NCBI RefSeq assembly: GCF_001650905.1
Contig: NZ_LXYG01000017.1
Coordinates: 124,001 to 188,000 of the forward strand
From: Balneola sp. EhC07
GTDB taxonomy: Bacteria; Bacteroidota; Rhodothermia; Balneolales; Balneolaceae
Length of the DNA: 64,000 bases
Reading direction: 5' to 3'
Shown: positions 43,626-52,535 of the stretch, in pieces
Layout: the number at the start of each line of letters is the position of its first letter
Numbering within the stretch: position 1 is the first letter of the stretch
Notes under the pieces: model-generated
Seen by the model: only the letters and a program-made list of their open reading frames with translations
What the model was told of the DNA's origin: nothing
Databases searched by the model: none
Made by a program: the position numbers and the translations under genes

Positions 43626-44927
43626 ATGATCCGATATTTATTTGTCCTACTGATCTTCGTTTCCGCTTGTGCTCCTGATAATAAACCGCCCATAGAATGG
43701 GGAGAATCGCCTTGGCCGGAAATTCGAAAGGAACGCATTAATACCTTGTTGCCACAAGCCATGGAAGCAGCGGGTGTTGATCTCTGGTTGGTGATCTGCA
43801 GGGAAAACAATAACGACCCGATCGCCGATCACATCGGGGGAGAAAATGCAGGAGGAACGGCGGCATTTCTGTTTTACCGAGACAGCGAAGGTTTTCATTC
43901 CAAGGTATTTTCGCCATCCGGAGAATCCACGGCGTTGGATGAATTAGATATTCACGACGAAGTGATTCCGATTGAAAGAGGGAGATCGGCAGTAAGTATG
44001 GCGGTAGACTTTATCAAAGAAAAAGACTTTAAAACGATCGCCATAAACTCGAGCACCGGTAGCGCTCAGGCAGATGGATTGAGCTACACCCAACGAATGA
44101 ATCTGGAAAACCAGCTTGGTTCCGAATTGAGTAAAAGATTGGTTTCTTCGGATGAACTGATCTATGAATGGTTGTCGGTAAAATTACCGGCGGAAGTAGA
44201 GATCTTAAGAAAAGCAGCTGAACTGACCGCTGCATGGGAATTGGAAGCCTACGAAATGATAGAGCCGGGCGTGACGACCGATGCGGATGTAGCCGCTTTT
44301 CTGGATGCAAAGATGGAAGAATACGGAGTTGGCGAAGCGTGGAACCCAACCCAAAATCCGAATGTGAATTCCGGACCGGATCGTGGTCATTCTCATGCAA
44401 CTGATAAAGTAATTATGGGCGGGGATGTAATTCAGACCGATTTTGGGATCAAATTGTATGGTCGCTGGGTGAGTGATATCCAACGATTTGCTTATGTGTT
44501 GAAAGAGGGTGAGACCGAAGCGCCGGAAGATATTCAGTTCTATTGGGAATCGGCCAGAGCCGGAAACCGAGCGGCTTTTAACGCGATGAAACCAGGAGCT
44601 AAAGGAGTGGAAGTGGATGCGGCACAACGAGTGTTGATGAAAGAAAACAATTCTGAATATGTACCGTGGAGCACAGGGCATCCGGTAGGTTATGTAGCCC
44701 ATGATGTAGGACCAAATCTGGGAGGATCGCAATCGCCGAGTGTACGTCCGGCGGCACAAAAACTCTTAAAAGAAGGAATGGTCTTCGCATTCGACGGCTT
44801 CCATGCATGGACCTTAGAATCCGGCGGAACCAAAACGATCAGCGTAGAAGAAATGGTAGTGATCACCGAAAACGGTGCGGAGTATTTGATCGCACCGCAG
44901 GAAGAGTTGGTTTTGGTGTGGAATTGA
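43626..44927 (+). CDS. M24-family metallopeptidase lipoprotein (Xaa-Pro aminopeptidase-like)
   Basis: I chose ATG 43626 because it gives a lipoprotein signal (MIRYLFVLLIFVSAC, Cys about residue 15). The longer ORF would run through a palindrome. The 433-residue product has a creatinase N-domain and a pita-bread catalytic domain. Metal ligands are seen in VIQTDFGIKLYGRWVSDIQR, GHPVGYVAHDVGP and the late Glu of SVEEMVVIT. The last 87 bp (44832-44918) are repeated twice more downstream of this gene, so the present 3' end may have been exchanged. Confidence 0.88.
   Translation: MIRYLFVLLIFVSACAPDNKPPIEWGESPWPEIRKERINTLLPQAMEAAGVDLWLVICRENNNDPIADHIGGENAGGTAAFLFYRDSEGFHSKVFSPSGESTALDELDIHDEVIPIERGRSAVSMAVDFIKEKDFKTIAINSSTGSAQADGLSYTQRMNLENQLGSELSKRLVSSDELIYEWLSVKLPAEVEILRKAAELTAAWELEAYEMIEPGVTTDADVAAFLDAKMEEYGVGEAWNPTQNPNVNSGPDRGHSHATDKVIMGGDVIQTDFGIKLYGRWVSDIQRFAYVLKEGETEAPEDIQFYWESARAGNRAAFNAMKPGAKGVEVDAAQRVLMKENNSEYVPWSTGHPVGYVAHDVGPNLGGSQSPSVRPAAQKLLKEGMVFAFDGFHAWTLESGGTKTISVEEMVVITENGAEYLIAPQEELVLVWN
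44832..44918 (+). repeat. 87-bp 3'-end repeat, copy 1 (within the M24 gene)
   Basis: It encodes KTISVEEMVVITENGAEYL and the following IAPQEELVLV, the natural C terminus of the M24 protein. Copies 2 and 3 lie at 46098 and 47448, identical in length without gaps. Confidence 0.93.
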
Positions 44928-45072: not shown

Positions 45073-46086
45073 ATGGGGAAAGATGAGCAAATAAGCTTTT
45101 TACTATATACATCAAATCAGGGAGAAGTACGAGTTAACGTTGCTTTGGAGGAAGAAACCGTATGGCTTTCCCAAAAAGCAATGGCAAGCTTATTTGGGGT
45201 TTCCAAAAAAACGATTAGTGAACACCTGATCAATATTTACGACACCTTAGAGTTAGAAAAAACAACAACTGTCCGGAATTTCCGGACAGTTCAACAAGAA
45301 GGTGATAGAGAAGTAACTCGTAATATTGAATACTATAATTTAGATGCGATTATTTCAGTTGGGTACCGGGTAAATTCAGTTGAAGCTACACAATTCCGGA
45401 AGTGGGCTACAAAAACATTAAAAGAGTTTTTAATCAAAGGTTTTGCGATAGATGATGAACGTCTTAAACAAGGCAAGACATTGTTTGGCAAGGATTACTT
45501 TGATGAATTACTGGAGCGTGTTCGCGAGATTCGGGCGTCGGAACGTCGGTTTTATCAAAAGATCACCGATATTTATGCGGAAGCCAGTGTAGACTACGAC
45601 CCAAGTGCCGAGATAACGCGAATTTTTTATAAAACAGTTCAAAACAAATTACACTGGGCTATTACCGGCCATACTGCAGCAGAGTTGATTACAGAAAGAG
45701 CAGATTCTAAAAAACCAAATATGGGTTTAAAAACATGGAAAAAAGCCCCTAAAGGAAAAGTGCTTAAAAGTGATGTTTCGGTCGCCAAAAACTATTTGAA
45801 AGAAGAAGAGCTTAGCGGGTTAAATCGAATAGTGTCTATGTATTTAGATTATGCAGAGAATCAGGCGGAACGACAAATTCCAATGACTATGCAAGACTGG
45901 ATAAAGAAGTTAGATGCTTTCTTAGACTTTAATGATTATGAGATTCTTAAAAATGCAGGAAAAATTTCGGCTAAAGTGGCTAAGAAATTGGCGGAAGGAG
46001 AATATGAGAAATTCAGACCTATTCAGGATAAAAAATTCGAATCCGATTTTGATAGGTTGGTAGAAAAAACCAAGAAAAAAGATTAA
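45073..46086 (+). CDS. Virulence RhuM-family protein
   Basis: A 337-residue protein matching the RhuM family: VNVALEEETVWLSQKAMASLFGVSKKTISEHL, an HTH-like N-terminal region, then FRKWATKTLKEFLIKGFAIDDERL and the C-terminal TAAELITERADSKKPNMGL of the family. RhuM was named from a Salmonella pathogenicity island, and its homologues are common in phage- and toxin-related islands. The molecular activity is not established. It lies between copies 1 and 2 of the M24 3'-end repeat, with no recombinase next to it. Confidence 0.9.
   Translation: MGKDEQISFLLYTSNQGEVRVNVALEEETVWLSQKAMASLFGVSKKTISEHLINIYDTLELEKTTTVRNFRTVQQEGDREVTRNIEYYNLDAIISVGYRVNSVEATQFRKWATKTLKEFLIKGFAIDDERLKQGKTLFGKDYFDELLERVREIRASERRFYQKITDIYAEASVDYDPSAEITRIFYKTVQNKLHWAITGHTAAELITERADSKKPNMGLKTWKKAPKGKVLKSDVSVAKNYLKEEELSGLNRIVSMYLDYAENQAERQIPMTMQDWIKKLDAFLDFNDYEILKNAGKISAKVAKKLAEGEYEKFRPIQDKKFESDFDRLVEKTKKKD
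45267..45291. repeat. 25-bp palindrome inside the RhuM CDS
   Basis: AACTGTCCGGAA, one central T, and the exact complement. It encodes the TTVRNFRTVQ stretch, so the palindrome is compatible with protein coding. Confidence 0.85.
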
Positions 46087-46097
46087 GTACTTAATCT

Positions 46098-46184
46098 AAA
46101 ACGATCAGCGTGGAAGAAATGGTGGTGATCACCGAAAACAGCGCGGAGTATTTGATCGCTCCGCAGGAGGAGTTGGTTTTGGTG
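46098..46184 (+). repeat. 87-bp 3'-end repeat, copy 2
   Basis: It differs from copy 1 at 6 of 87 positions by eye. Four changed codons are synonymous and one encodes Gly to Ser. A stop follows at 46188. It lies between the RhuM and Fic genes and has no start of its own. Confidence 0.93.
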
Positions 46185-46325: not shown

Positions 46326-47417
46326 GTGAAACCATTTATTCCACACGACTTACCCATTAAAAATATGGATTGGCAAAAATTCCAACGGATTTTAGGCCCT
46401 GCGAACAGAGCTATTGCCAGATATGATGGTTTATTACAATCCATTCCAAATCCTGCTGTTCTATTATCGCCATTAACTACACAAGAAGCGGTACTATCAT
46501 CCAAAATTGAAGGCACACAAGCTACTTTAGAAGAAGTATTAAAGTTTGAAGCAGATCCAAACAGAGAAACAGAACATTATCAGGATATTCGGGAAATAAT
46601 AAACTACAGAAAGGCAATGGCGTTTGCAGTAGCAGAGCTTGAAGAGCGCCCAATGAGCCTGAACTTATTGAAAAGAATGCATTCAATATTGTTGGATAAT
46701 GTGCGTGGTGAAAACAAATCCAGAGGTGCATTCAGGAACATACAAAACTGGATAGGAAAGCCGGGTGCAGCCATAGAAGAAGCGCGATATGTGCCACCGT
46801 CACCATTAAAATTAATGGAAAACCTTGACGCGTATGAAAAATACCTGCATGCTGAAGATGATGATGCCTTAGTACAAGTGGCAATAATACATGCACAGTT
46901 TGAAATCATACATCCTTTTTTAGATGGAAACGGAAGAATTGGAAGAATTTTAGTGCCACTATACCTTCATTCTAAAAATATTCTTCACCAGCCAATGTTT
47001 TATATAAGTGCTTATCTGGAAAAGCACAGAGATGAATACTATGATCACTTAAAAGCTATTAGTGATGATGGTAACTGGGAAGAATGGATACAGTTCTTTT
47101 TAAAAGCCATTGATACACAAGCCAGGGCAAATACAGAAAAAGCACGAAGTATTCTTAACCTTTATGAACAAATGAAGCAAAAGGTTGTTGAAAGCACACA
47201 TTCTCAGTATGCACTTCAGTCATTAGATGGTATTTTTACTGCACCTATTTTTTCATCTTCGGAATTCAAGAGATTTACAGGAATACCTAAAGCAAGCAGT
47301 GCACGGATTTTAAGCACTTTAAGAGATGAAGGAATCATCTCTATTTTAGAAGAAGCCAGCGGGCGTAAACCGGCAGTATATATATTCAGGGAGCTTATTG
47401 ATATTGTAAATCAGTAG
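46326..47417 (+). CDS. Fic-family AMP-transferase with N-terminal inhibitory motif and C-terminal wHTH
   Basis: A 363-residue class II Fic protein starting at GTG 46326 (AGGA lies about 9 bp upstream). The Fic_N inhibitory motif is SSKIEG with Ser58 and Glu62. The catalytic loop HPFLDGNGRIGRI begins at His196 and is canonical, so AMP transfer to protein targets is expected. The C-terminal ~90 residues (SSEFKRFTGIPKASSARILSTL) resemble a winged helix and could bind the repeats upstream of the gene. It lies between copies 2 and 3 of the 87-bp repeat. Confidence 0.92.
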   Translation: MKPFIPHDLPIKNMDWQKFQRILGPANRAIARYDGLLQSIPNPAVLLSPLTTQEAVLSSKIEGTQATLEEVLKFEADPNRETEHYQDIREIINYRKAMAFAVAELEERPMSLNLLKRMHSILLDNVRGENKSRGAFRNIQNWIGKPGAAIEEARYVPPSPLKLMENLDAYEKYLHAEDDDALVQVAIIHAQFEIIHPFLDGNGRIGRILVPLYLHSKNILHQPMFYISAYLEKHRDEYYDHLKAISDDGNWEEWIQFFLKAIDTQARANTEKARSILNLYEQMKQKVVESTHSQYALQSLDGIFTAPIFSSSEFKRFTGIPKASSARILSTLRDEGIISILEEASGRKPAVYIFRELIDIVNQ

Positions 47418-47447: not shown

Positions 47448-47534
47448 AAAACGATCAGCGTGGAAGAAATGGTGGTGATTACCGAAAATGGTGCAGAGTA
47501 TTTGATCGCCCCGCAGGAGGATTTGGTTTTGGTG
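47448..47534 (+). repeat. 87-bp 3'-end repeat, copy 3
   Basis: It differs from copy 1 at 8 of 87 positions by eye, 7 of them synonymous and one changing Glu to Asp. Beyond it the frame continues VACFNF and then stops, so this is the orphan end. The remaining 47535-47762 interval shows no recognised gene. Confidence 0.9.
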
Positions 47535-47762
47535 GCTTGCTTTAACTTTTAAAAGCGATATTCTAATCAAAGTTACACATTAAAAAGGCTAGTACTTTAA
47601 AAAAAAAGAAGAAGTGGGTACATTGAATAGGAAAGATTACGTCAAATTTTTAGGTGATATTCTTCCAATAGACTATTAAATAAAGGAGTATGCATATAAA
47701 GATCTCTAAACCAAAGAAGGTTAATGCACAACTTTATTACATTGCAAAAAACAAAAGCTAAA

Positions 47763-48158
47763 ATGAAAAAAATTGAAGTTGCTGCTGGAGTGATATTTTG
47801 TGAAGACAAAGTACTATGTGTTCAGAGGCCAAAAAATAAACTTCATTACATATCAGAGAAATTTGAATTTCCAGGAGGGAAAATCGAAGAGGGTGAGACA
47901 AGAGAAGAAGCACTAAAGCGCGAATTATTTGAGGAATTGAATATTTCTTCTAGGATTAGATCCCACTTTCTAACAGTTGAGCATAAATACCCAGACTTTG
48001 AATTAACGATGCACAGCTTTAAATGTGAAGTCGAGTCTCAAGAGTTAATTCTTAAAGAACACATAGATCAAAAATGGTTGAAAATTAACGATCTTACAGC
48101 ACTTGATTGGGCAGCAGCGGATATTCCTATAGTAGATAAACTAGTTTCGAATGGATGA
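47763..48158 (+). CDS. MutT-type NUDIX hydrolase
   Basis: About 131 residues from ATG 47763. An alternative ATG at 47724 adds 13 residues with no family match. The NUDIX box is GGKIEEGETREEALKRELFEE, a near-perfect match including the REL-x-EE metal residues, and the sequence resembles MutT/8-oxo-dGTPase-like pyrophosphohydrolases. Its stop overlaps the start of the large helicase gene by 8 bp, so the two are translated together. That physical link is the best clue to its role. Confidence 0.9.
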   Translation: MKKIEVAAGVIFCEDKVLCVQRPKNKLHYISEKFEFPGGKIEEGETREEALKRELFEELNISSRIRSHFLTVEHKYPDFELTMHSFKCEVESQELILKEHIDQKWLKINDLTALDWAAADIPIVDKLVSNG

Positions 48159-51100
48159 TCTGACCCAAAGCTTCAAACATAGCTTACATACCGGTTTTAT
48201 TGATAAAACAATTTTATCAGATTCGAATTATCAGCCTGAATTACTTATGAATCAAAAGAACCCACCCAAAAAGGTGCTTTCAACGATTCTTCATGAGCTT
48301 GAAAACTGTAATCAGTTTTTTATATCAGTTGCGTTTGTAACAACAAGTGGAGTTGCTGCAATAATCAACAAATTAAAGGAACTCGAACAGCGAGGAATAA
48401 AGGGTCAAATACTTGTTTCTCAATATTTGAATTTTACACAACCTGAAGCTCTTAAAAGACTTCTGAAGTTTAAAAATATAGACCTTAGAATAGCTACAAG
48501 TGGAAACACCCATACCAAAGGATACATTTTTAAGAGCAAAGACTATTATAATCTGATTATTGGTAGCAGTAATCTTACAGCACAGGCTTTATCTACGAAT
48601 AAAGAATGGAATATTAAAGTTTCTGCACTAGACGAAAGTGGCATTGTCGAGAAAGTGCTTCGTGAGTTTCATTCTGATTTTAAAGAGGGAACTCCCGTAA
48701 CAAGACAATATATTATGTCTTACGAGGAAATCTATCATAGTCAATTTCTTCTAAATCGAAAAAGTAAACTTGAAGATATAGTTGAGTCTCAACCTCTGGT
48801 CAGCCCTAATTCAATGCAAATAGAAGCATTAGAAAACCTACAAAAATTGAGAGATGAGGGGAAAAATAAAGCGCTAATCATATCAGCAACAGGAACAGGA
48901 AAAACTTATTTATCAGCATTTGATGCTAAAGCTTTTAAACCAAAAAAATTACTTTTTGTAGTTCATCGATTGACCATTGCGAAAGACTCACTAAACACAT
49001 TTCAAAGTGTTTTTGGCAAGGATAAAACTATGGGTTTGTATTCGGGAAACAGGAAAGACTTGGATTGTGATTTTGTGTTCTCGACTATTCAAACCATTTC
49101 GAAAACTAACCATTTAGATAACTTCTCGAAAGACCATTTTGATTACATCATAATTGATGAAACTCATCGATCGGGCGCGGATTCATATTTGCGCTTAATC
49201 GAGCACTTTGAACCTAAGTTTCTTTTAGGAATGACTGCTACTCCAGAGCGGACAGATGGCAATGATATATTTCAAATTTTTGATTACAACATTGCTTATG
49301 AAATAAGATTAAGCAGAGCAATGGAGGAGGAAATGCTTAGTCCTTTTCACTACTATGGTGTTACCGATTTAACTATTGACAACATAGAAATTGATAAAAA
49401 AACGGACTTCAATTATTTAGTCTCAAGCGAACGTGTTAAACGGATTATTGAGCAGGCAAAGTTCTATGGTAGTGATAATGGGGTTACGAGGGGGTTAATC
49501 TTTTGCTCAAGAAAAAAAGAAGCAATAGAATTGTCCGCATTATTCAATTTGAATGGATTTAAAACAATTGCTTTAACAGGTGATAATTCTGAAGATGAAA
49601 GAGCCGATTCAATTGAAAGATTAGAGTCAGAAAATCTAACTGAAAAGCTCGATTACATTTTCACTGTGGATATTTTCAATGAAGGGATTGATATTCCAAA
49701 AATCAATCAGATCATTATGCTGAGGCCCACAGAATCAGCGATTATTTTTATTCAGCAATTAGGAAGAGGGTTAAGAAAAGTTGATGGCAAGAACTATTTA
49801 ACTGTTATTGATTTTATTGGTAATTATGAAAACAACTACCTCATCCCCATCGCTTTGTATGGCGATACTTCATATAACAAAGATTCTTTGCGGAAATTAA
49901 TCACTGAAGGCAGCAGGATGATTCCTGGCGCTTCTACCATCAATTTCGATAAAATTACCAAAGAGAGAATCTTTCAATCTATTGATTCTTCCAATTTGCA
50001 GTTGTTCGCCGATTTAAAAAAGGATTACAATCTTTTGAAATTTAGGTTGGGTAGATCTCCAATGATGATGGACTTTATTGAGCATGGTTCACGCGATCCT
50101 TTTTCGTTCGTGGACTACAGTAAATCTTATTACAATTTCTATTTAAAAGTTGAGAGATTAGAGAGCTTAGAATTATCTAAGCAACACGAAAAGCTATTAG
50201 AGCTTTTTTCTAAAGAGATAAACAATTCAAAACGAGTTGAAGAAAGTCTTATCCTTAAATCATTAATTGAATTAAATGAATTATCGGTAGATGATTTAAG
50301 AGATATGATCCTTCAGCAGTACGGCTATTCGATAACTGAAGAAACCATAGAATCTTGCATCTCTAATTTGAATTTTAAGTTTATTAGAAAAGAAGAAAAA
50401 ATCCTTTATGAGGAGGGAGGGAAATTTCATTTTTATGAGGAATTCTTAGGCGTTTTGAAAAACAGAAAATTTAGGGAGTTTCTATTAGATTCAATTAGTT
50501 ATTCTATCTATGCTTTTAATAAATCTTATAGGGAAGAAAACTATAAAAAAGGTCTAATTCTCTATAATAAATACAGCCGTAAGGATGTATGTAGATTGCT
50601 TAATTGGGAAAAAGATATTAGTAGCACGATATATGGTTACAGAACAAAGGATGGTGTCACTCCGTGTTTTGTTACTTATCATAAATCAGACTCAATAGAT
50701 AACACTATTAATTATAACGATCATTTTATTGACCAATCTACATTTGCGTGGGAGTCAAGATCAAATAGGAAAATTGGGAGTAAAGAAATTAGGGAAGTGA
50801 GGAACTCCAGCCGCATTTTACTATTTGTAAAAAAGGAAGATGGGGAAGGAACAGATTTTTATTTTATGGGAGATGCTTCAATAGTTCCTAATTCAATTCA
50901 ACAAAGTACTATGAAGGACTCTAATCTACCGGTTGTTCATTTTAAATTTAACCTTGAACAACCTGTTGTTGATAGTCTATATCAATATATAACGACCGAC
51001 AAAATAAAAACATTTGACGAAGAGCCTCCCTCCGAAAACAAGGAAAGAAAAGCTACTGTTGACCCAATGTTAAAAGAAGAATTGAGTAACCCAATTCCGT

Positions 51101-51534
51101 TATATGATTTTTATGCAGCAGCAGGGTCGTTTAGTGAAATGCAATTAGAAAAAGATTTTTCCTTAATAGAAGGCCCAGAAAATATGAATTCTAATATCGA
51201 TTATTTTGCGTGTAAAATAGTCGGTGAATCAATGAATAGAGTTATTCCAAATGGCTCAATCTGCTTATTTAAGGCATATACTGGAGGAAGCCGTAACGGG
51301 AAAATTGTTTTGGTAGAAAATATGGATATTCAAGACGAAGATTTTAATTCCTCTTTTACCATCAAGACCTATTCAAGTGAAAAAGTAGTTTCGGAGGAAG
51401 GCTGGAAACACTCTTCAATTGTCTTAAGACCTAATTCATTTGATGATTCTTATAAAGAAATCAAAATAAATGAAGAAAATTCAGCTGGTATGAGGGTTGT
51501 AGGGGAGTTTGTAAAAGTTTTAGCGGAGGTATAA
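48151..51534 (+). CDS. PLD nuclease-SF2 helicase-DUF3427-S24 peptidase fusion protein
   Basis: An 1127-residue four-part protein. Residues 1-190 resemble a PLD-like nuclease with HTKGYIF (His121-x-Lys123) and IIGSSNLTA. Residues ~230-560 are a superfamily 2 helicase with Walker A SATGTGKT (~246), IIIDETHRSG (~336), GMTATPERTDG and FIQQLGRGLRK. Residues ~600-960 match the DUF3427 region found after such helicases. Residues ~980-1127 look like an S24/LexA-type peptidase with VGESMNRVIPNGS (Ser1027) and a candidate Lys1072 in FTIKTY. It overlaps a NUDIX gene. DNA-targeting defence or repair is plausible, but I know no characterised system with this whole architecture. Confidence 0.85.
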   Translation: MDDLTQSFKHSLHTGFIDKTILSDSNYQPELLMNQKNPPKKVLSTILHELENCNQFFISVAFVTTSGVAAIINKLKELEQRGIKGQILVSQYLNFTQPEALKRLLKFKNIDLRIATSGNTHTKGYIFKSKDYYNLIIGSSNLTAQALSTNKEWNIKVSALDESGIVEKVLREFHSDFKEGTPVTRQYIMSYEEIYHSQFLLNRKSKLEDIVESQPLVSPNSMQIEALENLQKLRDEGKNKALIISATGTGKTYLSAFDAKAFKPKKLLFVVHRLTIAKDSLNTFQSVFGKDKTMGLYSGNRKDLDCDFVFSTIQTISKTNHLDNFSKDHFDYIIIDETHRSGADSYLRLIEHFEPKFLLGMTATPERTDGNDIFQIFDYNIAYEIRLSRAMEEEMLSPFHYYGVTDLTIDNIEIDKKTDFNYLVSSERVKRIIEQAKFYGSDNGVTRGLIFCSRKKEAIELSALFNLNGFKTIALTGDNSEDERADSIERLESENLTEKLDYIFTVDIFNEGIDIPKINQIIMLRPTESAIIFIQQLGRGLRKVDGKNYLTVIDFIGNYENNYLIPIALYGDTSYNKDSLRKLITEGSRMIPGASTINFDKITKERIFQSIDSSNLQLFADLKKDYNLLKFRLGRSPMMMDFIEHGSRDPFSFVDYSKSYYNFYLKVERLESLELSKQHEKLLELFSKEINNSKRVEESLILKSLIELNELSVDDLRDMILQQYGYSITEETIESCISNLNFKFIRKEEKILYEEGGKFHFYEEFLGVLKNRKFREFLLDSISYSIYAFNKSYREENYKKGLILYNKYSRKDVCRLLNWEKDISSTIYGYRTKDGVTPCFVTYHKSDSIDNTINYNDHFIDQSTFAWESRSNRKIGSKEIREVRNSSRILLFVKKEDGEGTDFYFMGDASIVPNSIQQSTMKDSNLPVVHFKFNLEQPVVDSLYQYITTDKIKTFDEEPPSENKERKATVDPMLKEELSNPIPLYDFYAAAGSFSEMQLEKDFSLIEGPENMNSNIDYFACKIVGESMNRVIPNGSICLFKAYTGGSRNGKIVLVENMDIQDEDFNSSFTIKTYSSEKVVSEEGWKHSSIVLRPNSFDDSYKEIKINEENSAGMRVVGEFVKVLAEV

Positions 51535-51545
51535 TCGCAAGTCAA

Positions 51546-52535
51546 TTAATACCATTTTTCATGTACTTCTTTAAATCTTTTATTGTGAAGTAAAACAGCC
51601 TCAATCGCAGGATAATAATTCGGGTTATCAGGTAGTAAAATCTTTTTACCTTTTCTTTCTTCCAATCCTGAAATAATATTATCCGGAATATCCAGGTATT
51701 TTGAAATCTTTATCTTATAATATTCATCAATGGTTAACATGAAATTGTCAAACATCCAATGATGTGATTTACAAAGCGAAAGTCCGTTTCTGGGATCATC
51801 GTTTTTATAATCACTCCATGGAATAATATGTGCTGCATCAACAAGTGAATTACCATTAGGAGTTATTATTCTATCACCACAAATCGCACATTTATCATTA
51901 AAATTATTACGTATAACTCTTGAGAAACCTTTGCTTCGTACGGGTTTATGTACGGTGCTGAATTTTAATGGATTATCATTATGATCTAAATAAAAGGGAT
52001 CGGCGACCATACCTAAGAGAGAGTTGGAGTATGAATAACTCTTAGTAATGAGTTCTTGAGTTTTAGTAAGTCGTATAGCAATTTCATCTGAAAAATAGTT
52101 CTCAAAAAGGAGAAACCGTAGCTTTTTATTTTCTGAAGGGTCAGACATTATTTGAAACATATTCTGATCTATTTCAAATGATTCAACTCTTTTTAAAAGC
52201 GCTCCAAGAGACGGTGAATAAGAGAATTCATTTTCGCCCTGCTTATATATAAGTTTCCAGAAAGGCTCACTTTTCATGTGATAAAGAGGAAGAGCGATTG
52301 AGGTTTCTCTTTTTTCATCAAAAAGGTTTTCCCAGTAATCGAAAAAAGTTTCTCCTATAGAATCACTGAATTGAAAATGGCTTGAAATAATCCAACCATT
52401 TTCAATTCCATCCATAATAGATAGCAACAGAAGAGGTTTATGAGGAGCGCCAGTCTTAGTTCTTTCATCCCAAATATTAGGATTGGTATCCCGATTTAGG
52501 CTTATTAAAGAATCTATGATCTGTGATGAATTCAT
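51546..52535 (-). CDS. HNH endonuclease, McrA-like restriction type
   Basis: A 329-residue protein with a C-terminal HNH domain: CAICGD as first metal-binding pair, LVDAAHIIPWSDYKNDDPRNG and LCKSHHWMFD. The N-terminal ~190 residues include TGAPHKPLLLLSIMDGIENGW, which recalls the modified-DNA-binding N-domain of McrA/SBD-type enzymes, though this is only an impression. It is convergent with the helicase gene, with 11 bp between stops. No methyltransferase is present, so a type IV or orphan enzyme is more likely than a type II one. Confidence 0.82.
   Translation of the reverse strand: MNSSQIIDSLISLNRDTNPNIWDERTKTGAPHKPLLLLSIMDGIENGWIISSHFQFSDSIGETFFDYWENLFDEKRETSIALPLYHMKSEPFWKLIYKQGENEFSYSPSLGALLKRVESFEIDQNMFQIMSDPSENKKLRFLLFENYFSDEIAIRLTKTQELITKSYSYSNSLLGMVADPFYLDHNDNPLKFSTVHKPVRSKGFSRVIRNNFNDKCAICGDRIITPNGNSLVDAAHIIPWSDYKNDDPRNGLSLCKSHHWMFDNFMLTIDEYYKIKISKYLDIPDNIISGLEERKGKKILLPDNPNYYPAIEAVLLHNKRFKEVHEKWY

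Follow-up and report, generated by a model that had tools for sequence, protein, structure and literature searches.

The window analysed here is a stretch of 64,000 nucleotides of Balneola sp. EhC07 DNA (contig NZ_LXYG01000017.1, positions 124,001 to 188,000). An open reading frame (ORF) at positions 48151..51534 of its forward strand, starting with ATG, encodes a protein of 1127 amino acids (aa) whose body, judged by sequence comparison, is a SauUSI-type type IV restriction enzyme and whose C-terminus carries an S24 (LexA/UmuD-type) peptidase domain. Pfam recognises PLDc_2, ResIII, Helicase_C, DUF3427 (3.9e-78, 263 bits) and Peptidase_S24 in the full protein. PADLOC assigns residues 1-948 to mREase_IV, the methyl-directed type IV restriction enzymes (3.3e-245), and SauUSI (PDB 7clg) is matched collinearly over residues 3-948 (phmmer 5.2e-235, 786 bits). 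An earlier annotation made from the sequence alone (the sequence-only reading) had called the PLD/helicase/DUF3427 series a known architecture; that it is a defence nuclease-motor stands, but the family was not named there and is identified here as SauUSI-type by PADLOC and 7clg. SauUSI of Staphylococcus aureus (953 aa) consists of a dimer-forming PLD nuclease, an SF2 motor, a helical coupler and an SRA-fold reader of 5-methylcytosine (5mC); the dimeric enzyme cleaves DNA carrying 5mC or 5-hydroxymethylcytosine (5hmC) in an ATP-dependent manner and is active on its own, without an S24 domain (PMC7913695).

The same domains are found in the same order in the window protein, all on the forward strand. 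The PLD nuclease (residues ~1-191; 48151..48723; PF13091, 7.1e-11), whose boundary is transferred from SauUSI (PMC7913695), contains the catalytic HxK, His121/Lys123, at 48511-48519. It is followed by the SF2 helicase-like motor (residues ~192-616; 48724..49998; ResIII 5.2e-42, Helicase_C 3.7e-14), by a helical coupler (residues ~617-804; 49999..50562) that is collinear with SauUSI 618-805 (PMC7913695) and helical in the full-length model, and by a putative SRA-type modified-base reader (residues ~805-948; 50563..50994). This reader is the C-terminal part of DUF3427, whose match spans residues 686-948; the SRA fold is taken from the aligned SauUSI region (PMC7913695). The HxK, Walker A, DE.H and QxxGRGLR motifs of SauUSI are retained: His121, Lys123 and Asn141 of the nuclease do not vary among 46 homologues, and Walker A (residues 245-252), DETH (336-339) and QQLGRGLR (QQLGRGLRK; 535-542) are invariant or nearly so in the 46 sequences. 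SauUSI stops after its SRA domain, whereas the window protein adds a linker of ~30 residues and the S24 domain.

The linker, variable and flexible, covers residues ~949-979 (50995..51087) and the S24 domain residues ~980-1127 (~148 aa; 51088..51531; PF00717, 8.2e-7 and 29.2 bits when the tail is searched alone). Peptidase_S24 scores 4.5e-5 and 23.6 bits in the full protein versus a Pfam cut-off of 23.3, and searching the PDB with the tail sequence alone yielded only a weak match, to LexA (0.19). Because the S24 sequence score is modest, the tail was modelled structurally. The model was built from 16 homologues and has a mean predicted local distance difference test (pLDDT) score of 72.8; its top PDB matches are LexA, lambda CI and UmuD, with a Foldseek E-value of 2.2e-6 for 1jhe, which is also the best match by VIA-align (Z 14.7 over 120 residues at 2.4 Å). 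It aligns as well to the LexA, CI and UmuD chains bound to RecA filaments (8gms, 8trg, 8gmu, 8gmt), while the signal peptidases, which make up the second branch of the Ser-Lys clan, score far lower (Z about 6-7). The fold that the sequence-only reading had proposed for the C-terminus is thus borne out by the model.

The predicted catalytic residues are the nucleophile Ser1027 (in VGESMN; 51229..51231) and the general base Lys1072 (in FTIKTY; 51364..51366), both at the positions given in the sequence-only reading. A predicted self-cleavage site, Ala991-Gly992 (IPLYDFYAAA/GSFSE, cut between the two; 51121..51126), aligns with the cut-site region of UmuD. This LexA-type cut site is present in the sequence and absent from the earlier description. 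Sequence and model together indicate that an S24 domain with an intact dyad and a LexA-type scissile pair is at the C-terminus of the enzyme. Its likeness to LexA, UmuD and lambda CI extends to the fold (Z up to 14.7), the Ser-Lys dyad, the Ala-Gly site and the peptide order (MEROPS S24). It differs from them in ending a restriction enzyme of ~950 residues, without an N-terminal helix-turn-helix (HTH) or a polymerase partner; for the winged helix of LexA-type N-termini, Pfam finds no HTH in the window protein. Ser and Lys are spaced by 45 residues in the window tail versus 37 in E. coli LexA. The spacing in E. coli UmuD is also 37 residues. The tail has a signature specific to the family, GGSRNGKIVLVE...FTIKTYSSEK.

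A scan of 84,980 species yielded 567 relatives. Among 101 S24 copies the nucleophile is kept in 100 of the 100 scorable ones and the lysine in 101/101, so that the pair named in the sequence-only reading holds across homologues; Ala991 is kept in 99/100 and Gly992 in 98/100, with Ala at P2 in 97/100 and at P1 in 99/100. The scan was seeded with G[ERK]SM..., so conservation of Ser partly reflects how the copies were picked, while Lys, Ala and Gly lie outside the seed. An unseeded search of the phylum found the module in 17 of 394 genomes, and in the 16-copy alignment obtained from it Ala, Gly, Ser and Lys are all invariant. A structure prediction and a homologue search, both suggested along with the original proposal, have thus returned the S24 fold and found both the Ser/Lys and the Ala-Gly pairs kept. 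These figures bear on the view that the S24 domain is a dimerisation or docking module, for RecA or another partner, in which cleavage is absent or incidental. In LexA, CI and UmuD the S24 C-terminal domains form dimers. SauUSI itself is dimeric (PMC7913695), and the type III copy L126 has Ala-Thr rather than Ala-Gly at the cut site, so a few copies may not cleave. However, docking would not need all of Ser, Lys and Ala-Gly, each of which is kept at ~98-100% across at least three host architectures, and we consider a purely non-proteolytic role improbable.

The organisation of the tail is consistent with a tethered domain. The linker (residues 949-981) measures 17-43 aa across 46 SauUSI-S24 proteins and is their least conserved stretch, while the block IPLYDFYAAAGSFSE right after it is among the most conserved ones; in the full-length model residues 952-976 have a pLDDT below 50. 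Relative to the sister species G026 (locus L029), the S24 part shows 0 amino-acid changes in 145 codons at a synonymous divergence (dS) of 0.059, and the 32-residue linker has three. This pattern is what one would expect if the domain is tethered and its cut site is under selection, and the comparison places the tail under purifying selection. The fusion might be held to arise from misassembly, a frameshift or a decaying gene, and some relatives are indeed broken (for instance L052, L055, L083 and L104, split by a frameshift or stop). But the 98%-identical G026 and dozens of named isolates carry it intact, and the ratio of non-synonymous to synonymous substitution (dN/dS) is low in the tail; with intact homologues across the breadth of the family, the artefact or pseudogene reading was rejected as almost certainly wrong.

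The best 80 of the 567 relatives from the scan were read as loci. The tail is always C-terminal and is carried by four kinds of host protein: SauUSI-like enzymes (A); proteins of about 730 aa combining GIY-YIG and Schlafen-group-3 (DUF2075) helicase domains (B); HsdR-like proteins of about 1180-1200 aa, one of them encoded inside an HsdM/HsdS operon (C); and a type III Res encoded directly after a Mod methylase on a viral contig (D; L126). The complete host proteins examined are all helicase-like restriction or defence motors. The sequence-only reading had described the tail on one nuclease-helicase, where it is present; it is not peculiar to that protein, recurring on type I, III, IV and GIY-YIG/Schlafen motors. 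In the tree of S24 domains the A tails form one well-supported block, except those of the SauUSI-like L111 and L112, found among B, and the C and D tails group apart from the rest. This placement implies at least one transfer of the tail between unrelated motors in addition to one fusion per class. Self-cleavage as a control principle, also put forward from the sequence alone, is plausible, and recurrence on unrelated motors makes it both likelier and more general.

Phage origin of the module found no support in 50,697 phage genomes (0 matches); there are two matches in IMG/VR contigs and one on a Halomonas megaplasmid. The viral-classed IMG/VR contig L126 (1607-7541) encodes Mod, Res with the S24 tail (the Ala-Thr copy) and then a Fic gene. 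A variant of B is found in Pseudomonadota (L152 3053-5905, L153 240-2711, L145), with a Schlafen-group-3 helicase and S24 domain preceded by an N-terminus that Pfam does not recognise. The S24-restriction fusion is common in Bacteroidota, which makes it relevant to defence and to barriers against transformation in many environmental and host-associated species.

Regulation is the natural role for the tail because S24-less SauUSI is active alone and catalysis can therefore do without the tail. Restriction motors endanger their owner, and the S24-bearing hosts (SauUSI, GIY-YIG/Schlafen, HsdR, Res) are all translocase-type enzymes hazardous to self DNA. We hold with middling confidence that the linker-tethered, self-cleaving S24 domain is a control switch of the SauUSI-type enzyme, preferably an off-switch acting by degradation. 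The tethered domain would be inert while the enzyme restricts incoming DNA with 5mC or 5hmC. Breaks in self DNA, whether inflicted by the enzyme itself or by other damage, would lead to RecA filaments on single-stranded DNA, and these would engage the S24 domain in the way they engage LexA; RecA filaments are a likely trigger by analogy with the close structural relatives of the tail. Ser1027/Lys1072 would then cut Ala991-Gly992, a self-cleavage that sequence and model make likely. The motor-nuclease left would end in ...YDFYAAA, like the latent ClpXP degron that cleavage uncovers in LexA, and would be degraded, providing a built-in fuse and a cis-encoded form of type I restriction alleviation.

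Degradation is preferred over activation by analogy with known substrates of ClpXP. In a passage of PMC5742171 that cites Neher 2003, LexA-like proteins are described as having ClpXP C-degrons hidden beside the cut site, and the N-terminal fragment left after cleavage of a staphylococcal CI is acted on by ClpX (PMC10584840). For type I enzymes the answer to self-endangerment is restriction alleviation, in which a threat to self DNA leads ClpXP to remove HsdR (PMC4231737, PMC11109961). The proposed mechanism resembles EcoKI alleviation in shutting off, via a degron, a translocating enzyme that endangers self DNA. It differs in that HsdR of EcoKI has no S24 tail, whereas the window enzyme would encode the switch itself; the degron of EcoKI HsdR was sought and not located (PMC4231737). 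The degron outcome is also favoured because one tail on a loose linker must serve unrelated motors.

The opposite outcome would be an on-switch, in which the tail holds the enzyme or its dimer inactive and RecA-triggered cleavage frees active 1-991, as in the conversion of UmuD to UmuD'. The 1-991 product would hold every SauUSI domain, SauUSI works without the tail (PMC7913695), and the same arrangement on the other motors would make latent nucleases. But a poorly conserved linker of 17-43 aa is awkward for allosteric inhibition of four unrelated motors, while a degron suits any of them, and type IV enzymes are normally constitutive, unmodified self DNA being no target. An on-switch, under which defence would be armed only when incoming phage or plasmid DNA yields RecA filaments, is in our view the less likely outcome but a serious rival.

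Several observations weigh against the off-switch. The Ala-Ala at the cut site is explicable by peptidase specificity alone. Classical restriction alleviation is independent of LexA autoproteolysis and of SOS (PMC11109961), so that the likeness to it is functional and not mechanistic. The full-length AlphaFold model (46 sequences) has a predicted template modelling score (pTM) of 0.41 and is uninformative on domain packing; for this reason no reading is made from it on S24 docking or autoinhibition. Half of the tail-bearing genomes checked (10/20) have no LexA match, meaning that the trigger is not the full SOS regulon in all of them, RecA still being possible. Upstream of the operon that joins the restriction gene to the Nudix gene preceding it (see below), the only match to the LexA box has 3 mismatches and is at chance level.

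The host genome does encode recA, lexA and a UmuD-like gene that adjoins a Y-family polymerase gene (the polymerase assignment comes from inspection of the sequence). The probable LexA box of the lineage is the direct repeat ACATAYNTTNNACAT with an 11-bp period, derived from the lexA, umuD and recA promoters of the host and the lexA promoters of relatives (L131 2833-3492, L147-L151). Matches to it in the window number 121 versus 149 expected in shuffles, with no excess, a weak negative given the few promoters behind the box. SOS transcriptional control of the operon was considered and rejected, no above-chance LexA box being present upstream. A LexA and a UmuD-like protein encoded in the host would suit a trans-acting S24 domain that cleaves or senses phage repressors, LexA or UmuD and so couples restriction to SOS or to the state of a prophage. 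UmuD molecules are able to cut one another in trans. We regard this as very improbable, though, in view of the tail-bearing genomes without a LexA match and of the conserved own cut site, which would be superfluous for an enzyme acting only in trans.

SauUSI and S24 peptidases are each known separately. No description of S24/LexA-like fusions to restriction enzymes, DUF3427 proteins or GIY-YIG helicases was found in the literature covered, which was partial, and an earlier mention is possible. We tentatively propose, with some doubt but on what we see as a credible case, that the portable LexA-type tail is a general, undescribed control device of type I, III, IV and GIY-YIG/Schlafen motors that senses RecA directly, also where LexA is missing, and removes or releases the motor in cis. 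If true, LexA-type proteolysis would control immunity enzymes directly, beyond repressors and polymerases and also in genomes without a LexA match, and the switch would be concrete and mutable: one serine, one lysine and one peptide bond.

The SRA region varies independently of the tail. Among S24-bearing relatives its identity to the window protein is bimodal, 65-81% or 39-44%, while the flanking domains are not bimodal; L060, for example, has 83% identity in the nuclease, 86% in the motor and 74% in S24, with 41% in SRA. Because the SRA identity classes do not follow identity in the nuclease, motor and S24 regions, the reader appears to have been swapped while the tail stayed. This suggests at least two exchangeable SRA classes, between which base or sequence specificity may shift.

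The restriction gene is preceded on the same strand by a gene for a Nudix/MutT-like hydrolase (47724..48158; NUDIX PF00293, 1.7e-18; PADLOC PDC-S07) that overlaps it by 8 bp. Its true start is probably the ATG at 47763 (MKKIEV), where homologues begin. The nearest NCBIfam models are MutT and pyrimidine-dNTP diphosphatase (dNTP, deoxynucleoside triphosphate), all below cut-off, and the scores do not discriminate a MutT-like from a NudG-like activity. All 47 SauUSI-S24 loci whose upstream sequence is long enough have a same-strand Nudix gene there; in 45 of them it lies within 60 bp, and in 30 it overlaps by the same 8 bp. The Nudix gene also accompanies the three S24-less SauUSI relatives L030, L031 and L032 (3/3), which shows that it goes with the SauUSI family and not with the tail. 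E. coli NudG hydrolyses the 5-methyl and 5-hydroxy forms of deoxycytidine triphosphate (dCTP). By analogy, the Nudix partner could sanitise modified dCTP and so spare self DNA from the type IV enzyme.

The GIY-YIG/Schlafen-S24 proteins have a comparable neighbour, a MazG-like gene located directly upstream in 32/32 loci, usually with a 4-bp overlap. Like the window protein they end in the S24 tail, at 45-51% identity, and have immediately upstream a gene for a small NTP-pyrophosphohydrolase (NTP, nucleoside triphosphate), but their nuclease and helicase are unrelated to those of SauUSI. No PADLOC system model covers the protein. Together with the MazG-like gene it forms a conserved two-gene system (L033, L035, L037-L042, L092, L095 and others) that probably serves in defence and that no PADLOC model describes in full. 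In the Pseudomonadota variant the MazG-like gene is downstream rather than upstream in L152 and L145. In L052 and L115 the GIY-YIG/Schlafen-S24 gene adjoins a Nudix/SauUSI-S24 pair, the MazG gene also being present in L052, and in L069 a neighbouring Schlafen-type helicase with MazG has no S24 tail.

Farther upstream in the window, the last 87 bp of an M24 aminopeptidase gene are present three times: at its own end (44832-44918), right after a RhuM gene (45073-46086) at 46098-46184, and right after a Fic gene (46326-47417) at 47448-47534. The sister species G026 (L029) has neither the RhuM nor the Fic gene at the corresponding place. The 3′ end of the peptidase gene seems to have received two cassettes, one after the other, each consisting of a single gene from a defence-candidate family and each either importing a copy of the gene end or duplicating it. 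On the other side, an HNH endonuclease gene (51546-52535, reverse strand) is convergent with the restriction gene at a distance of 11 bp and is also found in G026; its product has a below-cut-off likeness to restriction enzymes of phosphorothioated DNA (94 bits versus a cut-off of 180).

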